Assembly (NCBI GenBank): GCA_000310025.1
Contig: FN649727.1
Coordinates: 7,554,909 to 7,593,992, forward strand
Source of the DNA: Ectocarpus siliculosus
Lineage: Eukaryota > Sar > Phaeophyceae > Ectocarpales > Ectocarpaceae
Direction of reading: 5' to 3'
DNA length: 39,084 nt
Both the position numbers and the translations under genes were made by a program. The notes below the pieces were generated by a model. The model ran no database searches and was not told the DNA's origin. It was given only the letters and a program-made list of their open reading frames with translations. Every line of letters begins with the position of its first letter. Position 1 is the first letter of the stretch. Of the stretch, positions 1,451-25,290 are shown piece by piece.

Positions 1451-4275
1451 ATGGCAACACAGAGATCCACTCTCTGGTCGTGGGCCCTCCTGGTGTCGTG
1501 CTTGGTGAGACCAGCGGCGGGCTTCGTAGGCAATGCCGCCGCCCTTCGGCTGACAACAACAGAGCGTGCTTGTCCCAGAAAATCCGCACGCTCCCGCGCT
1601 GCTGCCGCCGAGAGCAGTAGCAGTGCGCTGCTGTGCGAAATGCGACGACGACGCGTCGCTGCAGGGGGTGTCGGGGGACTACAAGCTTCGTTTGAGGTGG
1701 AGTTGGACCGAGGCTTGGAAATTGGGAGCGTCCTGGTCGCGGGAGCTGACAACTACGGAAGCATGACGTTCAAGGTTTGACACATGATGCAGGACGTGCA
1801 AACGTTCAAACTTTGCTGTACATCGTGTTCACGATGTGTCGGCTGGCACGTCGAAGGATCCCATGACACCCTAGAATGCAAGCAATGCAGTACTTACGGC
1901 GCTGTCGACGGCAGGATCCTCACGCAAGCGGCACGCAAAGTTTCTACTACGGTTCTGAAGCTGTTTTTTTGCACGTTCTCTTAGGATCGCTCACAGCAGC
2001 CACTTTACAGCAACGACCATCACCTCTCGAACTCTGCACTTCCAGCAACTGGCCACACCCTCTAGTCGACCCGGCACGCGACCTGCGCTGTAACACCTGT
2101 TTCGGGGACCACATGACGTAAGGTTTGCGCTTGCATCCGCTCCCAAAGGGCCAACGGTGGCACACCACCTGTCTTACTTATCATCGAGTTCACAGGCTAC
2201 GCCTGTAGCAGTGTACGAACTGCAGCATGGCAACGCGCACGAGTGTTCGAGAGATCACGGAGTTGAAGGCGCGTCCACCAGCGTGCTGGTCCTGCTGAAT
2301 CTACCGCGTTCGGCCGCTGCTGTATTGCTGCTGTTTAGCGTTCTAGTCCATTGTGATCGTCGTGTTGACGCTACAAACGTGCGACCGCGGTAGGCCCTCT
2401 TCATGTACTTTGATTGATGGGCCACACCCTTTCCCCGGCCCACTCGAAACGCGTCGATCCCGCCTTCGGAACTGTATATGGCGTTGGCTCCAGCGGATTG
2501 CCGCATTGAGGTATCGCGTTGTACCATTCCTCCCAATAGATCGCATGATAAACGGCATATGAAAAGCTGTTATCGGATAAAGCAAAGAGCCATGCTTGAG
2601 ATGGCCACATGTGCGCAGGGGGGTGAAAATCTAGAACGGGCTGGTAGATGGTTTCCCTCTTCCAAGAAAGGACGAGTTTTGCTTGTACTGCAACACGGCT
2701 GTATCGAGTTCCTGCAGGGGAGCTGTGCTATGTACCGGCTGGGCAACAGACCACACCACCTCACACAAGCATCGCTCTCGCCTGTCTCCTTTTTCGTGCA
2801 CCGGTAGGCCGTCGCGCTAGTTTACGAGCACGGAGAAGGAGGGCCGTCAAGAGCGGTTTGCGTAGACAAAGGGTTGGACTTCACGATCGGGGAGATGTCA
2901 ACCGGAGACCTCGGACCGCTTTCCAACAACCGTCTTTTTCGGGGCGGCGATGTACGTTTGCGTGTGTGTGTATCCTCTCCCAGGCTTTCAAGTTGTTGCG
3001 TTTGCGGGCGTGTGTCCTCTCCCATGCGTTCAAATTGTTGGGAGTGCCTGTGTAGGCATATTATACCTGAAACTGCAGGTATCCCGCATACAACTCTTTC
3101 GTCCCACACGAGAGCAACCAGCAGAAAAGAGGCGGGACTTGCACTGACGACAGGGTTTGGGACACGTGTCCTCCAAGTTCCTCTAAGTGCCCCGTGTAAG
3201 CAAGCAATTGCATGTCGGGTCGTTGTAGGATGTAACTCGGTGTTACCGCCGGTTCCGTTTCGTATCGCATGGTGAAATGGTGTATTTTGTTTTTGTTGTT
3301 TCGGCAGCGCACGCCACCTCTCGGTCGTGATGCCATCGAGGTCCAACCAGCCCTCATCCACTCGCAAGCCCAACCACTTTCCTTTCTCCACATTCAGCCC
3401 TCGCAACGCCACTTTGCTCCGTGCTTTTCTTCCCCCTGGTCTCACTAGGACGGCGGGGAGGCCGCCATCATGATCCACCCGCACGACATCATGGGGTCGA
3501 GGCCGTTGGGCGACACGGGCCTGTTCGTGGGAGGCTTCGTGACCGCCTTGGATCTGGTGGAGGAAAACAAGGCGAAGCCCGGCGACTTCAAGTTTTTCTT
3601 CAACCATCTCTCTTGGCCGGCGGGTGCTCTCCAGGAGCAGGTGTGTGAGGGCAGAGGTCCCCTATGAAGTATAAAGATAACGCCGTTACGGGACCCCCTT
3701 GCTCCACTCCCGGGTTCCAAGTTTCCTCGGGAAGCTACCGCACGTCCCCGCGGTAGTTGGGTTGAGTTCGGCGACTACGTAAACCTAGGACCGATATTGA
3801 TGACGTAAACCTTGTTGATTAACACATGACCGTGCTCCTTCTAGCGCACACTACAGAACATAGAGAACACTAGACACATGCGCGTGCTCTCTCTCGTGGG
3901 GGCCCGCACTTGGACCCCTAATAACATACCCAGATCGGATCTCGTACCCAAATAACATGGCTAAATAGGAGCAGCCGTTTCACTCCGTACGCGGTGCGTG
4001 ATGTGCCCCCATTCCCATGCTTTGGAAACCCGTACGCGTTTCTCTGTGTTGTTGCTGTCCGTCTGAGAATCACGGTTTTTGTTCAAACGGGAGGTTATGA
4101 CACCCATTTCAAAAAATGCGACGCGTATCTACGTCTCTTGGCTTGCGTGCCCGTGTCTTTCTCCGGTTTGGTGGGGGTTGTGCTGCAGGTGGGCAAGGGC
4201 CTGTGGAAGGTGGTCCGACTGCCGAACGACGTGCTGCTCGAGACGAAACGAATGCGTGACATGGAGCTGTGGTGA
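1451..4275 (+). CDS. Plastid-targeted UPF0301 (YqgE/AlgH-like) protein, 4 exons
   Basis: The exons are 1451-1774, 2808-2951, 3449-3640 and 4189-4275, all joined in phase 0, giving 248 aa. Residues 1-26 form a hydrophobic signal ending RPAAGF. Phe follows the likely cleavage site, and an Arg/Ser/Ala-rich stretch follows, as in bipartite leaders of secondary plastids. The mature part follows the UPF0301 family: ELDRGLEIGSVLVAG (edge strand), AVALVYEHGEGGPSRAV (family: V.L..EH...G..G), LFRGGD (GGP/GGD turn), GLFVGGF, FKFFFNHLSWPAGALQEQ (family FRFF.G...W..GQLE.E) and GLWKVV. The usual LNRP motif is replaced (CVDKG). The exact role of the family is unknown; bacterial AlgH/YqgE has been linked to gene regulation. 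The last codons read CTG TGG TGA, and the same bases contain a perfect donor GTGAGT (4272-4277). Family members usually go on about 20 residues after this Trp, so a further 3' exon is possible, but I could not find one. Intron 1 is about 1 kb. Confidence 0.8.
2955..3042 (+). repeat. Tandem duplication at the 5' end of UPF0301 intron 2
   Basis: Two imperfect units of about 44 bp lie immediately after the GTACGT donor of intron 2. Both start CGTTTGCG, have a GTGTGT block, then TCCTCTCCCA, then a TTCAA(G/A)TTGTT ending. The first unit begins 3 nt after the exon/intron border. Confidence 0.7.
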
Positions 4276-5876
4276 GTTTGACGGCCAATTGCTACGGCTA
4301 GCACACGTTCTCAGGGTATACGAAACGCACATGACATCACAACGTGAGAGCCTGCGTTGCGTGGTCTGTGCCCAATGGGACGTTTTGTCGTTCAACTCGC
4401 ACTCCGGAACTGAGATGGAACTATCGAAAGAATTGCGAGAATAGCGTTGAAATACGGTGCAACGCTTGCTTTCTGCGAAAATTCTGTTGGGTGTCCGAAG
4501 GTCACCAAGCTTTAACATCAACGGTGAGACAAGAATTCCCCAATCATCACATTCGTTTGATCCAGGGCAGCAAAAAATGATTTCCCGAGTGTCCACCGGC
4601 AACCGTGTCCTGGTATTGCCCCGCCGCTTCCTGCCTATCGTGCGCATACAAACCCATTACTGCAGGGGTCGGATCGAGTTTGCCCTCCAGAAGAAGGCGG
4701 AGCAATGACGAAAAGCCACCACTAGCGGTGTCGTACAACAAAATGCGAGAGTCAAACCATCGGCCGTCAATCGGGGCGGGGCATAAGCTCCGGCAAGATG
4801 ATACCATTTGCTGGCGGAAAGCGGGGCTACCCTCACGTCCAGTTTGTCGTGTGCCGTATTTTTCGCGCGACGGCGGTTTCCCACCAAGAAGCTTGTTTTT
4901 CGGTATCTTCGGGCTACGGGCATTCAACAATGTACAGGAAATATATGTGCGCCTTCTGCAAGCTAAGGGTAACTTTGCCTCGGACGGAATTTTTTTATTG
5001 AAAGTGACCATAACCTCCCAGAAAGACTATTGTACCCGTTCGAGATATAACCTCAGTCGAAAGGGATGTGGTGAAATATTTTCAGTAAGTGGATTGAAAC
5101 CGAGTGGAGACTTGGCTTATTTTGAGTTTGTGTAAGCCTAACACTGAGTTATCAGTGATGCCAGTTGGTGCTAAGAACAAAGGCATCTGTATAGGCGGAT
5201 ACATTCTGAACTTTTTGTAGAATGTGGCCTTCACAGGGAACATGGCGCAGTGTCGTTTGACAACTTGCTGTTTTAAGAAAGTACTTCGCTGCTGTTTTAG
5301 GCGACTTGAATATAGACTACAGTATGTACAGCAGTAGGACTGATGTACACCCACCAATTTTTTTCTTTCGACATGTTGTCGAGCACTGCCAATCGCATGC
5401 GACAACCGCACATGACACACCGATGCTGCTGTCGCAAAGTCTATTGCGCCGCTAGGTGGCATTATTGCGACGCTGCGGTGGTTTGTGTTTCCAAAAGAAG
5501 GCTGCCTGCCCCTGTGCACGCGCATTCTCGTTCCGTTAGTTCACCAACGGAGCCGTACGTTGATAACCACCCAACTTTCAGCGGAAAAAGTCGATATCCT
5601 CACAAGGTTAGCCTTACGAAAAAAAAAGCAAATCGGGCGACTCTCGATTTGACTGGGTACCGACATACGAAGACCCATACGAAATGAAACGCTACACTCA
5701 GCTGAAACAGCACAACCTCGCTGACTTGCTGCTGAAACTTGCGGCAACGTATAAACAGCGCGAAATAGGCTGTCAGGTGGAGAGCGAACCATCCAAAACG
5801 CGCGTACGTACTTAGGTCTTTTGAGCGGTGGTGGTGTACTGCATCTATCAATCGGGAAAACACGTGAGAGAGCCAG
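4276..5876. other. Between convergent genes; no supported gene
   Basis: This 1.6-kb stretch lies between the 3' ends of the plus-strand UPF0301 gene and the minus-strand gene at 5877-7795. The longest open frames (for example 4605-5135 plus, 176 aa) show no family pattern, no clear splice boundaries and no coding bias. It probably holds the two 3' UTRs and perhaps an unfound last UPF0301 exon. Confidence 0.5.
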
Positions 5877-6920
5877 CTATGACGAGCCGAGTTCTCTCAG
5901 CAACCGCTTCTCCTCCTCGACGTAGCTCTTGCCTCGCGACGCCTGCCCCTTGTCTCGCTTTGCCTGACGGTTTCGAAGACGCGGACACAGCACGAGGAAG
6001 AACACTAAATTTGCTTGACAGAACGTTAAGGACCTACACAGTAAGTCGACTCAAAATATTTCGGGGGTTACTGGTCCGCTCGCCCGACTGCTGTAGACCG
6101 CACATGGTATCTCTCCGTCTATTGTTCATTGTTGCATTTTGGCCGCAACTTCAAAACCTGAGCCCTGAGAAAAACGAGCTCCAGGCTGGCAAAAAAGAAA
6201 AAACAGCTTCTTCAGGTTGGCGCGTGGCAACTGGAACATGGCTTGGCACAGCGCAAATAAGCTTCGGTGCAAGGGCAGCGGATCGTTTTCGCGGTGGACG
6301 AATGTGGCGCTGAACGGAGCTCGCCGGTGCGCTGAAAGTACACGTGCACGAGTACTTGTAATACGAAAGAGGACGAACTTGCACCTGCTACCAGTTGTAC
6401 CGGCTTGGTTGTCTTATGCCAAAGAATGGCGCCAATCTCTTGAAACAAAAGGAGGGGGGGGGGAGGGGGGGGGCAGACCCCCCGACACTTGTCTACAAAA
6501 ACGGGAGAACCCCACCCAGCGTCGCTTACCTTCTCTCTCTGCTTGAACGTCAACTCTTTCGCGCCCCCACCTTTCCCTTTGCCCGCTCCCCCCGCAGCCG
6601 CGGCGGCGGCCCCTCTCCTCTCCGCTTCGCCCTGCCGTTGCCGCTTCCTCGACGCGTCCGAGGACCACAAGGCAGAATCCTCCGTGACGATATTCGGCCG
6701 AGACATCTGCGGGGGAACCAGGCCCTTGTTCGCGCTCCCCGCCCCCCCCTTCGAGTCCTTGCTCTTCTTGTTGCTACTGCCGCCGCCATCTGTTTTCTTG
6801 CGCTTGGGTGTTGTGAGCGGGGCGTCTGTTGCTGATGTCGCCGGGGCGGACAGGAAGGAGGCGGAGCTCGTGTCTACGCTGTCGAACAGATCCGCGGCTG
6901 ACGGGAGGGAGACCTGCGAC

Positions 6921-15342: not shown

Positions 15343-18300
15343 CTACGAACTCTTGTACTCCACGAAGAAAACCCCGAGGGCGGACAGGAGGCCAGCCTTG
15401 AGGTCAGCGACGCAGGTCTTGACCCTGTCGTCGTACACGGAATCCCACTTTGAGCCCTTGTCCCACTTCAGCTCCGGCTTTTTTTTGCGTGCGCGGAACG
15501 TCCAGAGAGATTTGTGCGGGGTGCGGTGGAGGTGGAGGGGAACAACGCAGTCGGAAAACATCGATGAAATGAGTTCACCCCAGGTAGAGTCGGGTTAACG
15601 GGATGGAGCAGCGAAGTATGTGGTTGACCAAAAAAGAGCCTAGTGAGCAGATTCGCACTTTCGTAGTGTCCGTACTCGTCTGTTGCATGCATTCGTCGAC
15701 GTTCTAGAATATTCGCGACAGCCTTGCTTTGCACTACGAAACCCTACACAGTCTTGCCCACAGAGGAATGCAGTTCACAAAACAAGCAACCTATATTATA
15801 GCAAAAAATACCAAACAGCGACAACACCGGCACCCGACCAACAGAAAGAACACAATCAGGCAGCAGCAGCATCGGAGACCGCTCACCTCTGACTCAAACC
15901 GTCCGTTGTCCACATCGCCATTGGTCATGTCCAAGAACTCCAGCGTGGCCTTGTACGTCTTCACCAGGCCAGCGTCCTTGCTTGCTGCTTGCCCCTCCTG
16001 CTGGCAGCGTCAAACGAACATCATAGACAAAACAGTGGTCACCCATAGCCTAGCCACTCGAGATCACCTCCTTTGGCTGCTCCTGCTGTGAGACGGGTCT
16101 TGCACCTGGCGCCACTCCAACCCTCTCGACCAAATACGCAAAACGTAAAAAAACTGGAAATCGTTTCTTCTCGTGAGATATCCGAGGAACCGGATTTTTC
16201 GACGAGATTGTCGGTGTCGTTTTCGAAAAATAAAAGAATAAAAAAATGCACGCAAAACAACGCACCTCCTGTGCTTGCGGCTGCAGCCCCATGGACTCGT
16301 CGATGGTCAACGAGAATTTGACCTTGACGTTGAACTCGAAGAGGTGTTTGGTCTTGTTGCTCACGCAGATCACACGCGCGTCCGCCTCGACAATCTCGAC
16401 GCTCGTCACGCTCGCCCTCAGCTGCAGAAGGGAAAATTCCAAGCATAGAACCCGGGGGAAACAGGTCGGTGCTATGTAGCAACTAAACAGAAACGGAGGG
16501 GTAGGGCCTCTTGTGGCGTACTTCATCCCCCGCCTTGCAAGGAACAAGGCACTTGTTAAGCGCAAGCGCACGATTCGGAGTGTTTTGAGCCAACAACACA
16601 TGGGTTTCCCTACGGGATTTCCCCGCGGGTTTCCCCACAGGTTTCTCGGATAACGAACCACGGGTTTCCCCGGCGTTTCCCCGGCAGCGAAACGCGTCAA
16701 GGAAAAAAAATGCCTGCATTTGTTCTGCCGGCGCGATCGGGGGATTCGGAACATCGTCGCACCGGGTTAAAGGGTCTCGGGGAAAGTCTACGTCCAGCTA
16801 CCCATCGACCCCACGAGGGCCCTTGCAAACGCTACACTGCTGTTTAACCCCGTCCCAACAAAAATGCTTCGCTATTACATGGCAGGGCATCACCACTACC
16901 ACCATTAACCAACCACCACCAATATCACCATCACCACCAACAGCAACCACCACCACCACCACCACCACCGCCAGCAACACCCACCTTCGAGAGGGCCTGC
17001 TTCAGCTGGCCGAGCGCCTCCAGCCCCTTCCCGCCCCCGGCGCCGTCCCCCGCGGCGGCGGAAGCGAAATCGAAACCGCCGAGCTTCTCCAACAGGAACT
17101 CCGGGTCGCTGCGAGCGTCCTTCCCCACGGTCACCGATACCTTACTGCGGGGCCCCCGAGACGACACAGAGCACGAGAAAAACTAACCATGAGGACGATG
17201 ATGGAAGGGTTGTGCAATAATTAGTGACAGACTCTAAGGGATCTTCGGGAAGGGGTCTGCCATTTTCGACCAAAAGTACGAAAAAAAGAGCGAAAAGAAG
17301 GAAGAAAAACAACGAAAGAAAAAGGAACGTAAGATACACGAAGGGAAGATAGGAAAGAAATAGAGAGCGAAAAAGAAGGCAGAGATAAAGAGAACACTGA
17401 AATAAGAAAAGAGGTACACAAGAACCTGAAGGCTTCCGTAAGCTTCCCCTTGCACCAGTCCGTCTTCTCCGTCTCCTCCCAGGTCCCAGCGTTGTTCCAA
17501 GCGGACCTAACGGCATCCGCGTCCGCCTCCTTCTTTTCTGGGATGCTCGCCGGATCAGCCACACGCTGCGAGTCGGCCAAGCCAATGAGCGAGCGACGCC
17601 GGGGGGAGCAAGGGGCACACCACAATGTCGTGGAAAAGGGGTGCCGCGGATGGTCACCAAGAAACAATACAATACACCACCCCCCAACTATGATTCCATA
17701 CAAACTATTGAGAGCCCGAAAAAAAAAAAAAAAAAAGAGCCACAAGGCGGTGTGGTATCTTACGTCACCGGCGCGCAATTATCGGAAACACGGCATCGTA
17801 CTCTGCACGATTGGTCTGGTCCTGTGGTGGTGTCTTCCAGGGGCGTGAGAAAATCTAACCTGCCTTGTGCCGACGCTACAAGACGGTTTTCGTCTCTTCT
17901 TGGTTGCGTTCGTGCGTTCTCTACAAGCCATTGTCTGGCCGTCACCTGGGCGTTGAGCCCGGCAAACACTGACTCCGTACACGTACAACATATCGCTCGA
18001 CGCAGCGGTTGGCGGTACCCACTCTACCGCAGCTGTCGGAACTTCGTCAGCTTCGGACTCTACTTCTTAGGTACCTCGCCCGCCCTCCAACACACCGCAT
18101 GATTCTCTCGCACCCGGGAAACGCACACGCTTTCTTTCGCCCCCCCCCCGACCCCCCACCCCCCCACCCCTCCACCCCTCCGGCCCGGCGCACTCACCGT
18201 TTTGAGCTTCATCTGCTCCGCGTTCAACAGCTGCTGGTCCTGCTCGCTGAGCGTCCTCTTGAAGTAGCAGTACCCCTGCTTTTTCGTGTCCTGGATGATC

Positions 18301-20310
18301 TTCAGGTCGTCCTCGTCCAGCTCCATTTGGTAGTCGCCGTCCCCCCCCCCCCCCTCCTTCTTGGAAGCCTTTTTTGGCGGGGCGACGGGGATCGCGGGGG
18401 GCCGCGGCTTCAACCTCTCCTTCTCCTCGCGTTCCTTCTTAGCCTTCTCCTCCGCCTCTGCCGTGCCGAGAACAGAAGACCGCGCCCGTCAGACCCAACA
18501 CAAGAAAGAGAGGAGGAGACGGCAAACCCTTCTCCTGTGCCTCTGCCACGCATCAAGAACAGCAGTCAATACCCATCACAAACAACGCCAACAAAGAGAA
18601 AAGGAGACGGCGAACCTCACGTTGCGGTGGATGCGGGCGGGGGGCGTCGCGAGGAAATTGTGGAATCTCGCCGCGCAGGTAGATACCGTAGACCTACTAA
18701 ATACAAACCTTTCTTCTCCTTCCGCCAGTCCTCCAGCGTCTGCTCCTCCTTTCCATCCGCCTTCCTCTGCTCGTTGGCCTTGCCCCACTGTTCCTCCTCC
18801 TCCTTCTGACGCTTCAGGGCTTCAGCTTCTCGCTTCTTCCGCTCAACCTGTAACGAGGGGATAAGAGAGGGAGAAGGGTGTGTGTTGCTTTAGGCTCTTC
18901 CGCCCATCCTTCACGCATGTGTCTGTCAAGACGACCGTGTGTAGAAACAAAAGGTTCGCCTGCCGCGTGCACCTAAGCATATGATTGTAAGCTCACGCGA
19001 AGCGACATGTACGTACCCCAAAAAAGAAGGCAGCACCAGCCACCAGCCACTGCAACAGCAGTAGCAGCAGCGGTAGCTCAATCAACCTCACTTGTCGCTG
19101 TACCCAAGGCTTTCTGCCGAGCTGCCGAGCGACTATCCGTCAAACAGCCGATTCCCCAAAGGAAAAACAATTAAATACCACCAGCCACCACACGTAAGAA
19201 CGGAAGACGCACCGCGCCCTCTCTCTAGCCCCCGTTGACTCACGCTTTCTCCCCATCCTACCACCTCTTTGGACACAAAGTAAAAGCGGGTTGCAGCAGC
19301 AGTATATTTCTTCGGCCTACGAGACAAAATCACAATGCACAAGAGCGCGCCAACTCTGCCACCTCCGTGCAGTCACCAACGAGCCATCGCTTACCCGAAA
19401 AAGTCGAATGACTAGTTCGTGGTCCCGGTACAGCGGTCCCTTCTCCTTTTCGCGGGATGCCCTCAAAAGCGGTTCCACAATCTCGTGGCACGGCCGAGCA
19501 ATCGGTAGTCCAACTACTATACAACTGCCTATCCCGTTTAGCGGCGATGCCATCAATAGCCGTTATACCATTTTGTGACAATGTGGGTCGCTAAACCGGA
19601 ACCACGATTGCCGCATCGACACGTGAGAAAAACACGGTCTTGTACACGTCGTCGTCATCGCGAACGGACGCCCCCCCCGAAAATTATATCTGTGTGCCCC
19701 CCGAGGAGGAGCATGTATATACGGACCCCCTGCTTGCCTCTTTGTCGTTGTACATTGGCCCCTTGTCGAACAGGCCCCCGTAGCTCTCCTTCTCCTTCTT
19801 TCTGTGCTCCACGAGTCGGTCTCGCACCGCCTGTCGCACAGACGGCACGACGTGGTCGGGAGAGAAGGAGAGAGAGACACAAGAGTATAATGCATGAGAA
19901 AGAGAGAGCCTGCCGAAGAAAATAAAAAATTCCCACACAGATCTCCGCGATAGGCGTCCCCGCATCCCCTCTCCCCTCCCGTTCACAAAACAGGAGTGGG
20001 GGAAGGGGGGTGCCGGCTACTACTCCCGCGCCCCGGAGACCTCGTTCGCGTCGAGTCTCGTGTGACAGAACATGATAGGGAAGCAAGGACGACAGACCCG
20101 CACTCGATATGGCTACAAGTATAGTGCCCACTTTCTTCACAATTCTTTGGCATAACCACGGTGCACTCTTAAGCCGTGGGACTCTTGACCCCAAACTTGA
20201 AGGAAACCACAGCAGCAGAGCACGGCCTTGTTCGCAAAACAAAAGCACTGGGCCATCCCAGAGGAAAGGCGGACTTTGAGCAAATATGCAAACAACATCC
20301 ACGACAACGA

Positions 20311-20358
<48 letters not shown>

Positions 20359-20806
20359 CAGTAGCAACAACGCGTAGATCAATTCACCTTGAGCTCCTTC
20401 TTGGCTCCTCCATTGCGCGGGTCAGCCTTGACAACGGCCAGCAGGTCGCTCTTGGCGTCTTCCAAAGACCCGAGTCGTGCTCTGGCCACACCTCTCCGGA
20501 ACAAAGCCTACGACACGACCACGATTAAGCGACGCGTCGAATGCGGCTGAGAATAATCACAAGCCTTCACGGGCAGAGACACGCACGCACGCACACCATT
20601 TTCCTCGGGGGATTGCCGGAATTCTTGCTGTTACTAATGTTACTTATATCCATTCTCACTCTTTGCGAGCCAGCTCCCCCAACGACCACGAGAATTTTGT
20701 TTCGCAATACTTCTTTATAACGGCCACAGCACGGATGCTGTCGAGGCACTTGGAGGGTGTAGACGTGCCGTCAAAGCGGATCGCTTTAATGCGAGAACCA
20801 CATTCA

Positions 20807-20856
<50 letters not shown>

Positions 20857-22226
20857 TTTCGGGTCGAGGAAAAAATTATCTGTCTCTCTCTCTCGCCCTC
20901 TGATGCCAACCTTTTCACTGTTTCCCCCTCTCTGCCTCCCCCCCCCCCCAACGACGACCCCCACCTTGACGTTGGCAGCGTCGACCTCCAAAACCTTGGT
21001 GGCCGCGCTCGCGGCGTCGAAGTACCGCTCCTCCTTCGTGCAAGCCAGCGCGAGGTTGAGCCTGAGCGACAGCAGCAGTGCCTTCGCCTGCTCGTCTGTT
21101 CCCAGCGTGGAGACGATCTTGATGCCCCTCTCATAATGCTTAGCGGCGCCGGCGCTGTCGCTCGCCGCGATGCACACGTTGCCCTTGTCCTTGTACCCCA
21201 TGGCCTGCGTCGATATTCCGCGGGGGAGGCATCGGGGGGGCGGGGGTACTTCTTTCTTTGCTTGCCGGTCCGTGGGGGTGTACTTACACGCGTGCGTGCC
21301 TCGACTATCTCACCAGTACGTACGCATCTCTTACAGGTGCCAAAAGGGTACTCTCACAATTGATCAAGACTGTAGGAGGTACATATGCACATTCTTGCCG
21401 CGCTGGACGTGAACATCTCGAAAAGTCTCTGGCCCCAGCCTCATTAGGCAAGACACACCACCGACCGCTACATAGTGATAGCAACTACCCTCCAAGTAAG
21501 AGGGTCGAAAGCGTCCGGCGAGCCAGTCGCGAGGGGTGGGGTGATCGAAACATGTGTGTGGTACATCGAAAGCGCGCGTAAAAACAGCGGGGGAACCATG
21601 TCAGCCCTCCGAATACTGCACCCTAACGCTCTGCTCGTGTTCTGCGCGTTGGCGAGCTTTCGCATAGCAGGCGGGCAGGCAGGCCTCCGATGGCCTCTCG
21701 GACTGGGGCACACGACAACATAAACGGTGCTGCTTCTTCTCAACGAGGCGCGCATGCCGGGGGGAGGGGGAGGAGGTAACGTGTTGTTGTGGTCTTTTCT
21801 CGCCCCCTTCTGCGGAGTCATCTGAATAGATGCCGAATCCGTCTTCGGGACAGCAAGTCGGGCTCGGGACTAATTCAAGGCTGCGCTTGTCTTGCCTACT
21901 AGGTGCACCCGTTTGTCACCCCCCATCACGTGCAAGCAGGCATACCATGCAAACGGTACCTTGATGAGCTTCTCCTCGGGGGTCTTGCTGTTTTTAGTCG
22001 CCGCCGCCGTGCCGCCGTCGCCCCCGCCACCGCCGCCCCCCGTCGCCTCCGTGTCGTCGTCCGAGTCGGAGCCGGAAGATCCCTCTGCGGCCGCATCTCC
22101 CGACGCAGCAGCCGACGAGCCATTGGTTCCTTCTGCTGTCGCTACTGCTGCTGCTGCTGCTGCTGCCTTCTCTGGATGGGCGGCCGTCTCTGCTGGAGGC
22201 GGGAAGACGGCGTTAGGATCGGTCAT
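15343..22226 (-). CDS. TPR - Aha1 N-domain fusion, predicted Hsp90 co-chaperone, 11 exons
   Basis: The exons (minus) are 22226-21960, 21204-20965, 20507-20388, 19830-19738, 18847-18709, 18457-18198, 17565-17426, 17144-16985, 16421-16266, 15997-15887 and 15477-15343. They total 1821 nt, 606 aa, with every junction in phase (eight phase 0, one phase 1, one phase 2). Residues 1-89 are an Ala/Gly/Asp-rich leader. Residues about 90-240 are three TPR-like helix pairs with KDKGN, LRLNLALACTK and K-ALFRRG, followed by a charged extension (KKEKESYGGLFDK) typical of TPR immunophilins. A coiled-coil, Lys/Glu-rich linker follows, with a small block ending KKQGYCYFKRTLSEQDQQLL. Residues about 390-606 fit the Aha1 N-terminal domain: SAWNNAGTWEE...W...KL (human NNWHWTE...W), a VTSVE..EADARV...KTKHLFEFNVKVKF strand pair, KTYKATLEFLDM, and a final helix. 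Aha1 stimulates the Hsp90 ATPase; TPR clamps bind the EEVD tail. Intron 4 has a GC-AG boundary. The acceptor of exon 11 is the weakest. Confidence 0.85.
18458..18625 (-). repeat. Tandem duplication of the acceptor junction in intron 5 of the TPR-Aha1 gene
   Basis: On the minus strand the real border reads GTTCTCGGCACGGCAG / AGGCGGAGGAGAAGG (exon 6 starts at 18457). About 85 nt upstream, the intron contains GTTCTTGATGCGTGGCAG / AGGCACAGGAGAAGG (border at 18542), followed by the same GCCGTCTCCT.. CTTTGTTGG-like spacer. The duplicated unit therefore includes the polypyrimidine tract, the AG and the first 15 nt of the exon. A trace of a third spacer lies near 18600. Confidence 0.7.
20314..20355. 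repeat. (CAG)14 array in intron 3 of the TPR-Aha1 gene
   Basis: A pure CAG run (CTG in the transcript sense), followed by interrupted CAGTAG units, ends about 30 nt from the exon 3 donor. Confidence 0.95.
20810..20854. repeat. (CAG)15 array in intron 2 of the TPR-Aha1 gene
   Basis: A second pure CAG run (CTG in the transcript sense) lies in the neighbouring intron. In two minus frames it gives long poly-Cys or poly-Ala runs, which are not coding because the exon ends at 20965. Confidence 0.95.
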
Positions 22227-23628: not shown

Positions 23629-24747
23629 CTTATGTTTTGCATGCCGTAGTCGTTAGACGATTGACCACGCGTCCTCGAGAGGACGGAGCATTGTTCCCAC
23701 AGGACCGATCACCGATGGCCAATCGTTCCTTCCTACTTTGCCAAAGGTGGCTCAAAAATGTCTTCCCTAGTCTGTCTATCCTCACGATATCCCTTCCCGC
23801 CTTTTCAAACCACTTCCTACTCCCCAGTACAGCTACCGTCCTCTCCTCTCTATTCCATGCCTCAAACATCTCCCTGTACGTCCCTTGTATTTTTCCCAGC
23901 TCAGTCATGTACACTTTCCTCTCCTCTTCGTACCACGGACATTCCGCGACTACATGAACACGGTCTTCGCATTCGAAGCCGCAATCATATTTGAACTTGT
24001 CGTCTTCGTCGTCTACCGTCCTATGTCTTCGTCGGTCCTGAATTTGACCTTAAGCTTTGTCCCTGCATCCATTGGTCCATGTAGGTAATCCTTGAACCCT
24101 ATTCCTTCTTTCAACTTTCCGTACACTTCTAGACCCTCCTGATCCTCGGTTTCTTTCCTTAGATTATGTTTTTCTCTCTCTCGGCACAAGCAACAAATAT
24201 CTTCTCCTTGAACCCCTCTAGACCCTCCGTTTCCGGCGTTTCATCTTCGTCGATGTCTAACCCCTTCCATACGTCCTTCTGTGGGTTGTCTACCCCTGTT
24301 TTTGTTTGCCCACTTCGCCTCCCATACTATTCTTGGCAACCTCTCCTCTCCCATCCCGCACATGCGATACTGCCATGTCAGCTTCCTTGCGTCTCTTCCT
24401 GACCGCAGGGATTGGGTCCCCAATTCTGCCCTGACGGCTGCATTACTGTGCGCTTGGAGCATTCTAGGAAGAAAATCGCTGCTTTCATCTGCGCCGCCTC
24501 GAGTTCTTTCACTACCTTCTTTTTTCCTTCCCATACTTCTCCGGCGTACTCTAGCGGCGGTACGACTACGCTCTTCAAAACCGCCAATTTGATGCGTGTA
24601 TCGAGGTGCCGGTTTGCGAGTATTGGGTGCAGCTTCCCTGCTCGTGCTTTGCCCTTTTCCGCTCCTTGGGACATGTGTGCATTCCACGAGCAGTATTTTG
24701 CGATTTTTATTCCGAGGTAGGTGTACTGGTCCACTACGGCATTCTCC
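23629..24747 (-). mobile_element. Degenerate non-LTR (LINE) retrotransposon, 3' part
   Basis: On the minus strand, 24747 to about 24540 reads ENAVVDQYTYLGIKIAKYCS, WNAHMSQGAEKGKARAGKLH and LAVLKSVVVPPLEYAGEVWEG. This is the region after the catalytic core in LINE reverse transcriptases (YLG......W..H, then L..LY..V..P.L.YG.E.W). Further on, KLTWQYRMCGM..ERLPRIVW and, in another frame, an ECPWYEEERKVYMTELGKI segment match the C-terminal part of such ORF2 proteins (CP.Y..ER). Stops and frame changes break the reading, so it is dead. Its 3' end (23629-23745) is the tRNA-like block, and it ends in a C tract (minus sense). The 5' part, including the catalytic motif, is missing. Confidence 0.75.
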
Positions 24748-25290
24748 TGGGGGGGGGGGGGGGGTGTACTCATAGTCGTGCATGCCGTAGTCGTTTGACC
24801 ATTGACCTCGCATCCCTACAAAGCCGGGACGGAGCACGCCGGGTTCTCACCGGACCAGGCTCTCACATCACCAAGCGCGAAGCGCCGTGAGGTATTTGGC
24901 GAGTCGCATGAAGGGTGAGCTGCATCCTGCTAAGGGTGTTCGGCATCTTGTGCTTACTTCCTTGCGTACGGATGACAGCTACGTATGACTTAATTTATTT
25001 TCTGGTGCTTTCACTTCCAGAGACAGTTGTGAGCACTGTGTAACTGCCTCGAGGAAGCTTGACCATTTTAACACAACGTGGTACGATCATCCCCCGTTGC
25101 GCGGAGTGAGGTTTCTCGACCCCGCACAACATGATCTACTCGACCACCATTATGGTTACCGCCAAAAAAAAAAACGAGGTAAAAAAAAAAAACGGTAACC
25201 TGGTTGCCGAGTTCACGGAGTGAATTGGCTTGTTTTACAACGTCGTTGCCAAGCGACGAAAACCCAACCCCGATGACAAACACCGGGGGG
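24748..25290 (-). mobile_element. Dispersed element of about 0.5 kb with tRNA-like 3' end and C tail, left copy
   Basis: This element matches 36066-36577 in inverted orientation over almost its full length, with small indels (I estimate roughly 90% identity by eye). Read on the minus strand it begins in the CGTCGCTTGGCAACGACG block, passes GGTAACCATAATGGTGGTCG, CTCGAGGCAGTTACACAGTG and GCGCTTCGCGCTTGGTGATG, and ends GAGGTCAATGGTCAAACGAC, TACGGCATGCACGACTATGAG, TAC and a C run. No coding capacity is seen. It abuts the LINE fragment directly: its C tail touches the LINE sequence. Confidence 0.75.

Follow-up and report, generated by a model that had tools for sequence, protein, structure and literature searches.

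Can a single protein carry both of the modules through which co-chaperones act on Hsp90? The exchange of Hsp90 co-chaperones normally takes the form of competition between separate tetratricopeptide repeat (TPR) proteins and Aha1-type proteins, and we addressed the question at a locus of Ectocarpus siliculosus (assembly GCA_000310025.1, contig FN649727.1, positions 7,554,909-7,593,992 of the forward strand). This whole stretch of 39,084 nt is referred to below as the window, and coordinates are those within the window unless another contig is named. The predicted gene lies on the minus strand at 22226-15343 and consists of 11 exons that join in frame to encode 606 amino acids followed by a stop codon. 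We computed its gene structure, domains, clamp residues and motif changes, together with a second fused gene on contig C14 of the same genome and the tail of one Hsp90. The gene probably encodes an Hsp90 co-chaperone that combines an immunophilin-type TPR clamp, a charged linker and an N-domain of the Aha1/Hch1 type, and that would act as a tail-tethered, Hch1-like modulator.

Nine of the ten introns are bounded by GT-AG, while intron 4 is GC-AG (GAG|GCAAGC). This intron is also the longest of the ten (890 bases), and an alternative in-frame GT donor located 15 bases downstream would yield a product of 611 amino acids. The GC content at codon positions 1, 2 and 3 was 0.62, 0.43 and 0.81 over the whole coding sequence, and position 3 exceeded position 2 in every one of exons 2-11 (10/10), including the linker exons 4, 5 and 6. 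The low-complexity exon 1 is the weakest, being without codon-position bias (0.69/0.67/0.66); its last nine codons (residues 81-89) fall inside the alignment to PDB chain 2fbn described next.

A three-motif TPR domain is present in the N-terminal half. One repeat scored above the Pfam cut-off (TPR_2, residues 169-201, 32.9 bits against a cut-off of 27), and the others were placed by alignment to 2fbn and FKBP51. When residues 81-240 were compared with PDB chains, 2fbn was the best match (E-value 3.8e-21), with FKBP51 and then FKBP52 following. The entry name of 2fbn is putative 70 kDa peptidylprolyl isomerase, and we take it to be P. falciparum FKBP35. The match to 2fbn and FKBP51 extends past the last repeat, where the window protein reads KESYGGLFDKGPMYNDKE and FKBP51 reads RRTYANMF; this segment is presumably the charge-Y motif of FKBP51/52, a label for which a search of papers found nothing. 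Judged by these similarities, the TPR domain is of the immunophilin type. A Pfam scan of the 606-residue product at an E-value of 1 found no FKBP-type peptidyl-prolyl isomerase domain. All five carboxylate-clamp residues are found where the original prediction had placed them (K94 and N98, N139, K169 and R173), with K169 closing exon 2, and they agree with the published clamp consensus K5N9-N6-K2R6 (PMC2939883). The linker that follows, residues 241-286, is composed of D, E, K and R to 63%.

In the C-terminal half, the Pfam model Aha1_N (PF09229) matched residues 407-520 with 23.3 bits (E-value 8.3e-5; profile positions 4-67 of 136), and exon 9 alone gave 20.7 bits to the same model in a whole-genome search, below the cut-off. 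A profile combining the C14 domain with yeast and human Aha1 scored the window domain at 21.0 bits in isolation and at 18.1 bits within the full-length protein; in the shuffle control (5000 sequences made, 4126 scored) the best shuffle reached 10.0 bits. With hhalign, the C14, yeast and human Aha1 fragments matched the window domain at a probability of 95% over 113 columns. The residue equivalent to yeast D53 is kept as D487, whereas the human AHSA1 fragment carries E there. An insertion of about 40 residues lies inside the domain and is found neither in the C14 gene nor in the two aligned Aha1 fragments (yeast and human). Pfam detected no C-terminal AHSA1 (START-like) domain in the product, in line with its predicted absence. 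On these profile comparisons we regard the Aha1_N match as real but weak.

Several results weigh against the assignment. The Pfam score lies 0.3 bits below the cut-off of 23.6, and the sequence from about residue 521 onward is without profile support and was placed by MAFFT alignments alone, so that of the match foreseen over residues of about 390-606 the portion at 407-520 was recovered, below cut-off, and the second half was not. The Aha1 part alone had no match among PDB chains by phmmer even at an E-value of 10, and when both paralogues were combined into a profile, an AHSA1 chain was matched at an E-value of 0.006 only. BLASTP between the window and C14 domains was significant (8e-8) no further than roughly the first 75 residues. 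In the alignments, moreover, WNNAGTW (residues 396-402) stands in place of the NxNNWHW motif and VSNK (residues 493-496) in place of RKxK, with the last Lys alone kept.

The second fused gene came to light when the genome was searched with Pfam Aha1_N, and it lies on contig C14 at approximately 2025037-2029116 (L002:2538-6617). A single open exon at L002 3040-3690 encodes TPR repeats, a Ser/Gly-rich linker, the element GYKITADGKKTTYFNNDLTEE and then SAWNKAGTWESRDMT, in which SAWNKAGTWE marks the start of Aha1_N; later exons encode the remainder of the domain. Scanned alone, this exon gave TPR_2 at 27.0 bits, exactly at the cut-off, and no Aha1_N match because the domain only begins there, and the joined product reached 69.3 bits for Aha1_N and exceeded the cut-offs of four TPR models. 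The nearest relatives of its TPR domain were Hop/STIP1, not FKBPs, and the window and C14 TPR domains barely matched each other (the sequences used in these TPR comparisons contained one spurious residue). A search of L002 bases 1-2530 for the K..GN clamp gave one unconvincing site and the 5' exon was not found there, which is why three of the five clamp residues are visible in this gene.

Both genes have in common a GY..YF element ahead of Aha1_N, followed by WN[NK]AGTW, and they are 28% identical over the aligned Aha1 region. The C14 gene differs in its Hop-like TPR, in a Ser/Gly-rich rather than charged linker, and in an Aha1_N domain far closer to the family. By sequence, the Aha1_N halves look related and the TPR halves look to be of different classes; the pair may have arisen by an ancestral fusion followed by divergence, by exchange of the TPR, or by two separate fusions. 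The existence of a second TPR-Aha1_N gene makes an annotation artefact unlikely for the window gene. Together with the in-frame join and the profile matches, this parallel bears out the original prediction that 11 exons encode TPR and Aha1_N in one chain of 606 residues.

Other features were noted at the C14 locus. Shortly before the exon for ISFSRGK there is a near-copy of its beginning (L002 ~5595-5630, 5719-5874), reading ISFSRGKMYNV and then a stop; the exon has apparently undergone a partial tandem duplication. Upstream of the fusion (L010:1029-6618), an open frame at 4723-6615 matched a helicase C-terminal domain with 43.3 bits; by eye, this frame and the stretch at 1029-1373 together look Dicer/RIG-I-helicase-like, and the latter stretch had no Pfam match.

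We also searched for a free or canonical Aha1. Across the 189-Mb genome, Pfam Aha1_N gave three matches at E-values up to 10, all of them inside the window and C14 genes. The AHSA1 C-terminal domain was found neither by Pfam (E-value up to 1) nor with the yeast Aha1 C-domain, in searches of low sensitivity because introns split genes. The yeast Aha1 N-domain had no match either, and since it missed the C14 gene too, yeast queries are evidently too distant. Of these searches the one with Pfam Aha1_N counts for most. A divergent free Aha1 could escape it, and the absence is no more than suggestive, because introns split genes and the window gene itself was seen by exon 9 alone. Weak protein-query matches on C47 (E-value 1.64), C138 (0.17) and C12 (1.09) were taken as chance. 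Scans of viral and genome contig collections, which were not aimed at algal or protist nuclear genomes, yielded no confirmed relative. That the genome yielded two fusions differing in clamp type, and no free Aha1, suggests that the Hsp90 system of this lineage is laid out differently. We tentatively raise a more far-reaching and rather doubtful possibility, namely that this lineage no longer has a free Aha1 and regulates Hsp90 in the Aha1 manner solely through tail-tethered chains, by the immunophilin-type clamp of the window protein and the Hop-type clamp of the C14 protein; each would then be a switch factor in one chain, expelling Hop and governing the ATPase cycle, and WN[NK]AGTW would be the form that NxNNWHW takes in this lineage.

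As for the partner, Hsp90 matches were located on four contigs, C4 (the strongest), C26, C13 and C2. The last two exons of the C4 copy join across ATC CAC AG|G CTT, and the joined end aligns end to end with Hsp90-alpha/beta (E-value 2.6e-20). Its tail ends in MEQVD, not MEEVD (L026:551-742, corresponding to C4:4665850-4666041). No tail was found in the ends examined of the C26, C13 and C2 copies, and that of C4 is the sole tail resolved. A MEEVD-stop pattern occurred at one place in the genome and was rejected because the sequence was not Hsp90-like. An MEQVD ending has been reported for the Hsp90 of Leishmania and T. cruzi; in Leishmania, deletion of the motif lowers Sti1 binding, and the authors describe it as a suboptimal variant of MEEVD (PMC3654555). 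The C4 Hsp90 should therefore offer a usable, slightly altered tail to a TPR clamp.

For the window protein we infer binding to Hsp90, tethering, an effect on the ATPase and displacement of Hop. The clamp would grip cytosolic Hsp90 by its MEQVD tail in competition with Hop/Sti1 and other TPR partners, and the linker would allow the Aha1_N domain to reach the Hsp90 middle domain. There it might nudge the catalytic loop and stimulate the ATPase mildly, as Hch1 or the isolated Aha1 N-domain does, with the tether raising its local concentration. Yeast Sti1 is displaced by Aha1 acting jointly with Cpr6, a TPR immunophilin (PMC5018835); modules of these two types, separate proteins in yeast, would here share one chain. 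Binding to the Hsp90 middle domain by Hch1, or by the Aha1 N-domain on its own, brings small or weak stimulation, and the Aha1 C-domain is required for full stimulation (PMC5018835). For Aha-type activity the motifs NxNNWHW and RKxK are important, although deletion of NxNNWHW left stimulation by the Aha1 N-domain alone unimpaired (PMC6426937). Given the weak stimulation by Hch1 and the N-domain, the altered motifs and the dispensability of NxNNWHW in that setting, we propose a tail-tethered, Hch1-like modulator. Published findings on Sti1 release speak against this proposal, in that the Aha1 C-domain, missing in the window protein, is required to displace Sti1 together with Cpr6 (PMC5018835), and Hch1, likewise without a C-domain, is inefficient at the displacement (PMC6426937). 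Of the two-handed co-chaperone originally predicted to tether and activate Hsp90 at once, the tethering hand is plausible, although the one Hsp90 tail resolved is MEQVD and not MEEVD, and the activating hand is less secure because NxNNWHW and RKxK are altered and the isolated Aha1 N-domain stimulates little. We regard activation of Hsp90 by this protein as uncertain; the chief competing reading is a role confined to binding.

In that rival, the Aha1_N domain would have lost activation and would make a second, non-stimulating or inhibitory contact with Hsp90, or bind something else, leaving the protein mainly a TPR adaptor. We consider it the less probable account, but one of real weight, as the changed RKxK and NxNNWHW motifs, the insertion of about 40 residues and the borderline score with an unmatched second half would all fit it. 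Against these stand the alignment of the D53 equivalent and its flanking strands, a similar C-terminal end reached by the domain (in the MAFFT alignment alone) and the occurrence of WN[NK]AGTW in both paralogues, which argues for some kind of retained function.

The partner and the gene boundaries admit other explanations as well. It seems improbable that the clamp is chiefly for Hsp70 tails, or for those of both chaperones, and that the protein consequently bridges Hsp70 and Hsp90 instead of tying Aha1_N to one and the same Hsp90: its closest PDB chains are the TPRs of immunophilins (2fbn and FKBP51/52), known as Hsp90 partners, and Hsp90 is the economical choice because Aha1_N lies in the same chain. 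In favour of such a role, binders of Hsp70 and of Hsp90 have these clamp residues in common, specificity coming from other contacts (PMC2939883). Least credible of all is the wrong joining of two adjacent genes, an immunophilin-like TPR gene ending at exon 4 and an Aha1_N gene beginning at exon 5 or 6. The 2fbn alignment does stop at the FDKGP..K segment, which is the end of exon 4, and the long intron with the GC donor comes next; however, the coding bias of exons 4-6 follows the frame of the join, an in-frame GT donor is also available at that intron, and the architecture recurs in the C14 gene, where one exon encodes both TPR repeats and the beginning of Aha1_N.

Table 1. Exons of the predicted TPR-Aha1_N gene, in coordinates of the window
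Feature	Position	Strand	Content
Exon 1	21960..22226	-	Low-complexity N-terminal tail, residues 1-89; proposed ATG at 22226
Exon 2	20965..21204	-	TPR motifs 1-2; clamp K94, N98, N139; last codon is K169
Exon 3	20388..20507	-	TPR motif 3; clamp R173
Exon 4	19738..19830	-	Segment behind the TPR repeats; carries KESYGGLFDKGPMYNDKE as in 2fbn and FKBP51 (alignments)
Exon 5	18709..18847	-	Charged linker
Exon 6	18198..18457	-	Remaining linker; GYCYF...LSE element ahead of Aha1_N, common to the C14 gene
Exon 7	17426..17565	-	Start of Aha1_N; SAWNNAGTWEE where NxNNWHW is expected
Exon 8	16985..17144	-	First Aha1_N strand; insertion of about 40 residues
Exon 9	16266..16421	-	Aha1_N core with D487 (yeast D53) and VSNK (yeast RKxK)
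Exon 10	15887..15997	-	Latter half of the Aha1_N-like domain (placed by alignment alone, without a profile match)
Exon 11	15343..15477	-	C-terminal end of the domain (likewise placed by alignment alone, without a profile match); TAG stop

Runs of CTG, read on the minus strand, occur inside intron 3 (~20310-20370) and intron 2 (~20805-20855). Upstream of the gene, open stretches at 23633-24815 on the minus strand resemble by eye the remnants of a reverse transcriptase of long interspersed nuclear elements, and Pfam gave no match there. Among nine neighbouring open stretches, one had a Pfam match, a weak AlgH-like (DUF179) one at 3449-3664 on the plus strand (17.6 bits against a Pfam cut-off of 27), and NCBIfam matches were all far under cut-off.

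A search of the published literature, covering titles and abstract openings with subscription papers and domain databases outside it, found no TPR-Aha1_N fusion protein; sequence databases may already contain architectures of this kind that have drawn no comment. Trypanosome Aha1 is classed among the non-TPR co-chaperones in PMC9538636. A fusion that occurs in nature would offer a ready test of two questions: can an Hsp90 dimer be held by its tail and modulated at its middle domain simultaneously, and does the tether remove the need for the Aha1 C-domain and for the NxNNWHW and RKxK motifs? With FKBP35, FKBP51 and FKBP52, the window protein has in common the TPR clamp and, behind it, a segment with Y..(L/M)F; unlike them, it has Aha1_N, and Pfam found no FKBP peptidyl-prolyl isomerase domain in it. 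To the two-domain Aha1 proteins (yeast Aha1, human AHSA1) it is linked by a related N-domain, whereas their START-like AHSA1 domain was not found in the window protein or, at low sensitivity, in the genome. It is like Hch1 and the Aha1 N-domain in having Aha1_N by profile, the D53 equivalent and no C-terminal AHSA1 domain, and it departs from them in carrying WNNAGTW for NxNNWHW, VSNK for RKxK, an insertion and a TPR clamp in front.

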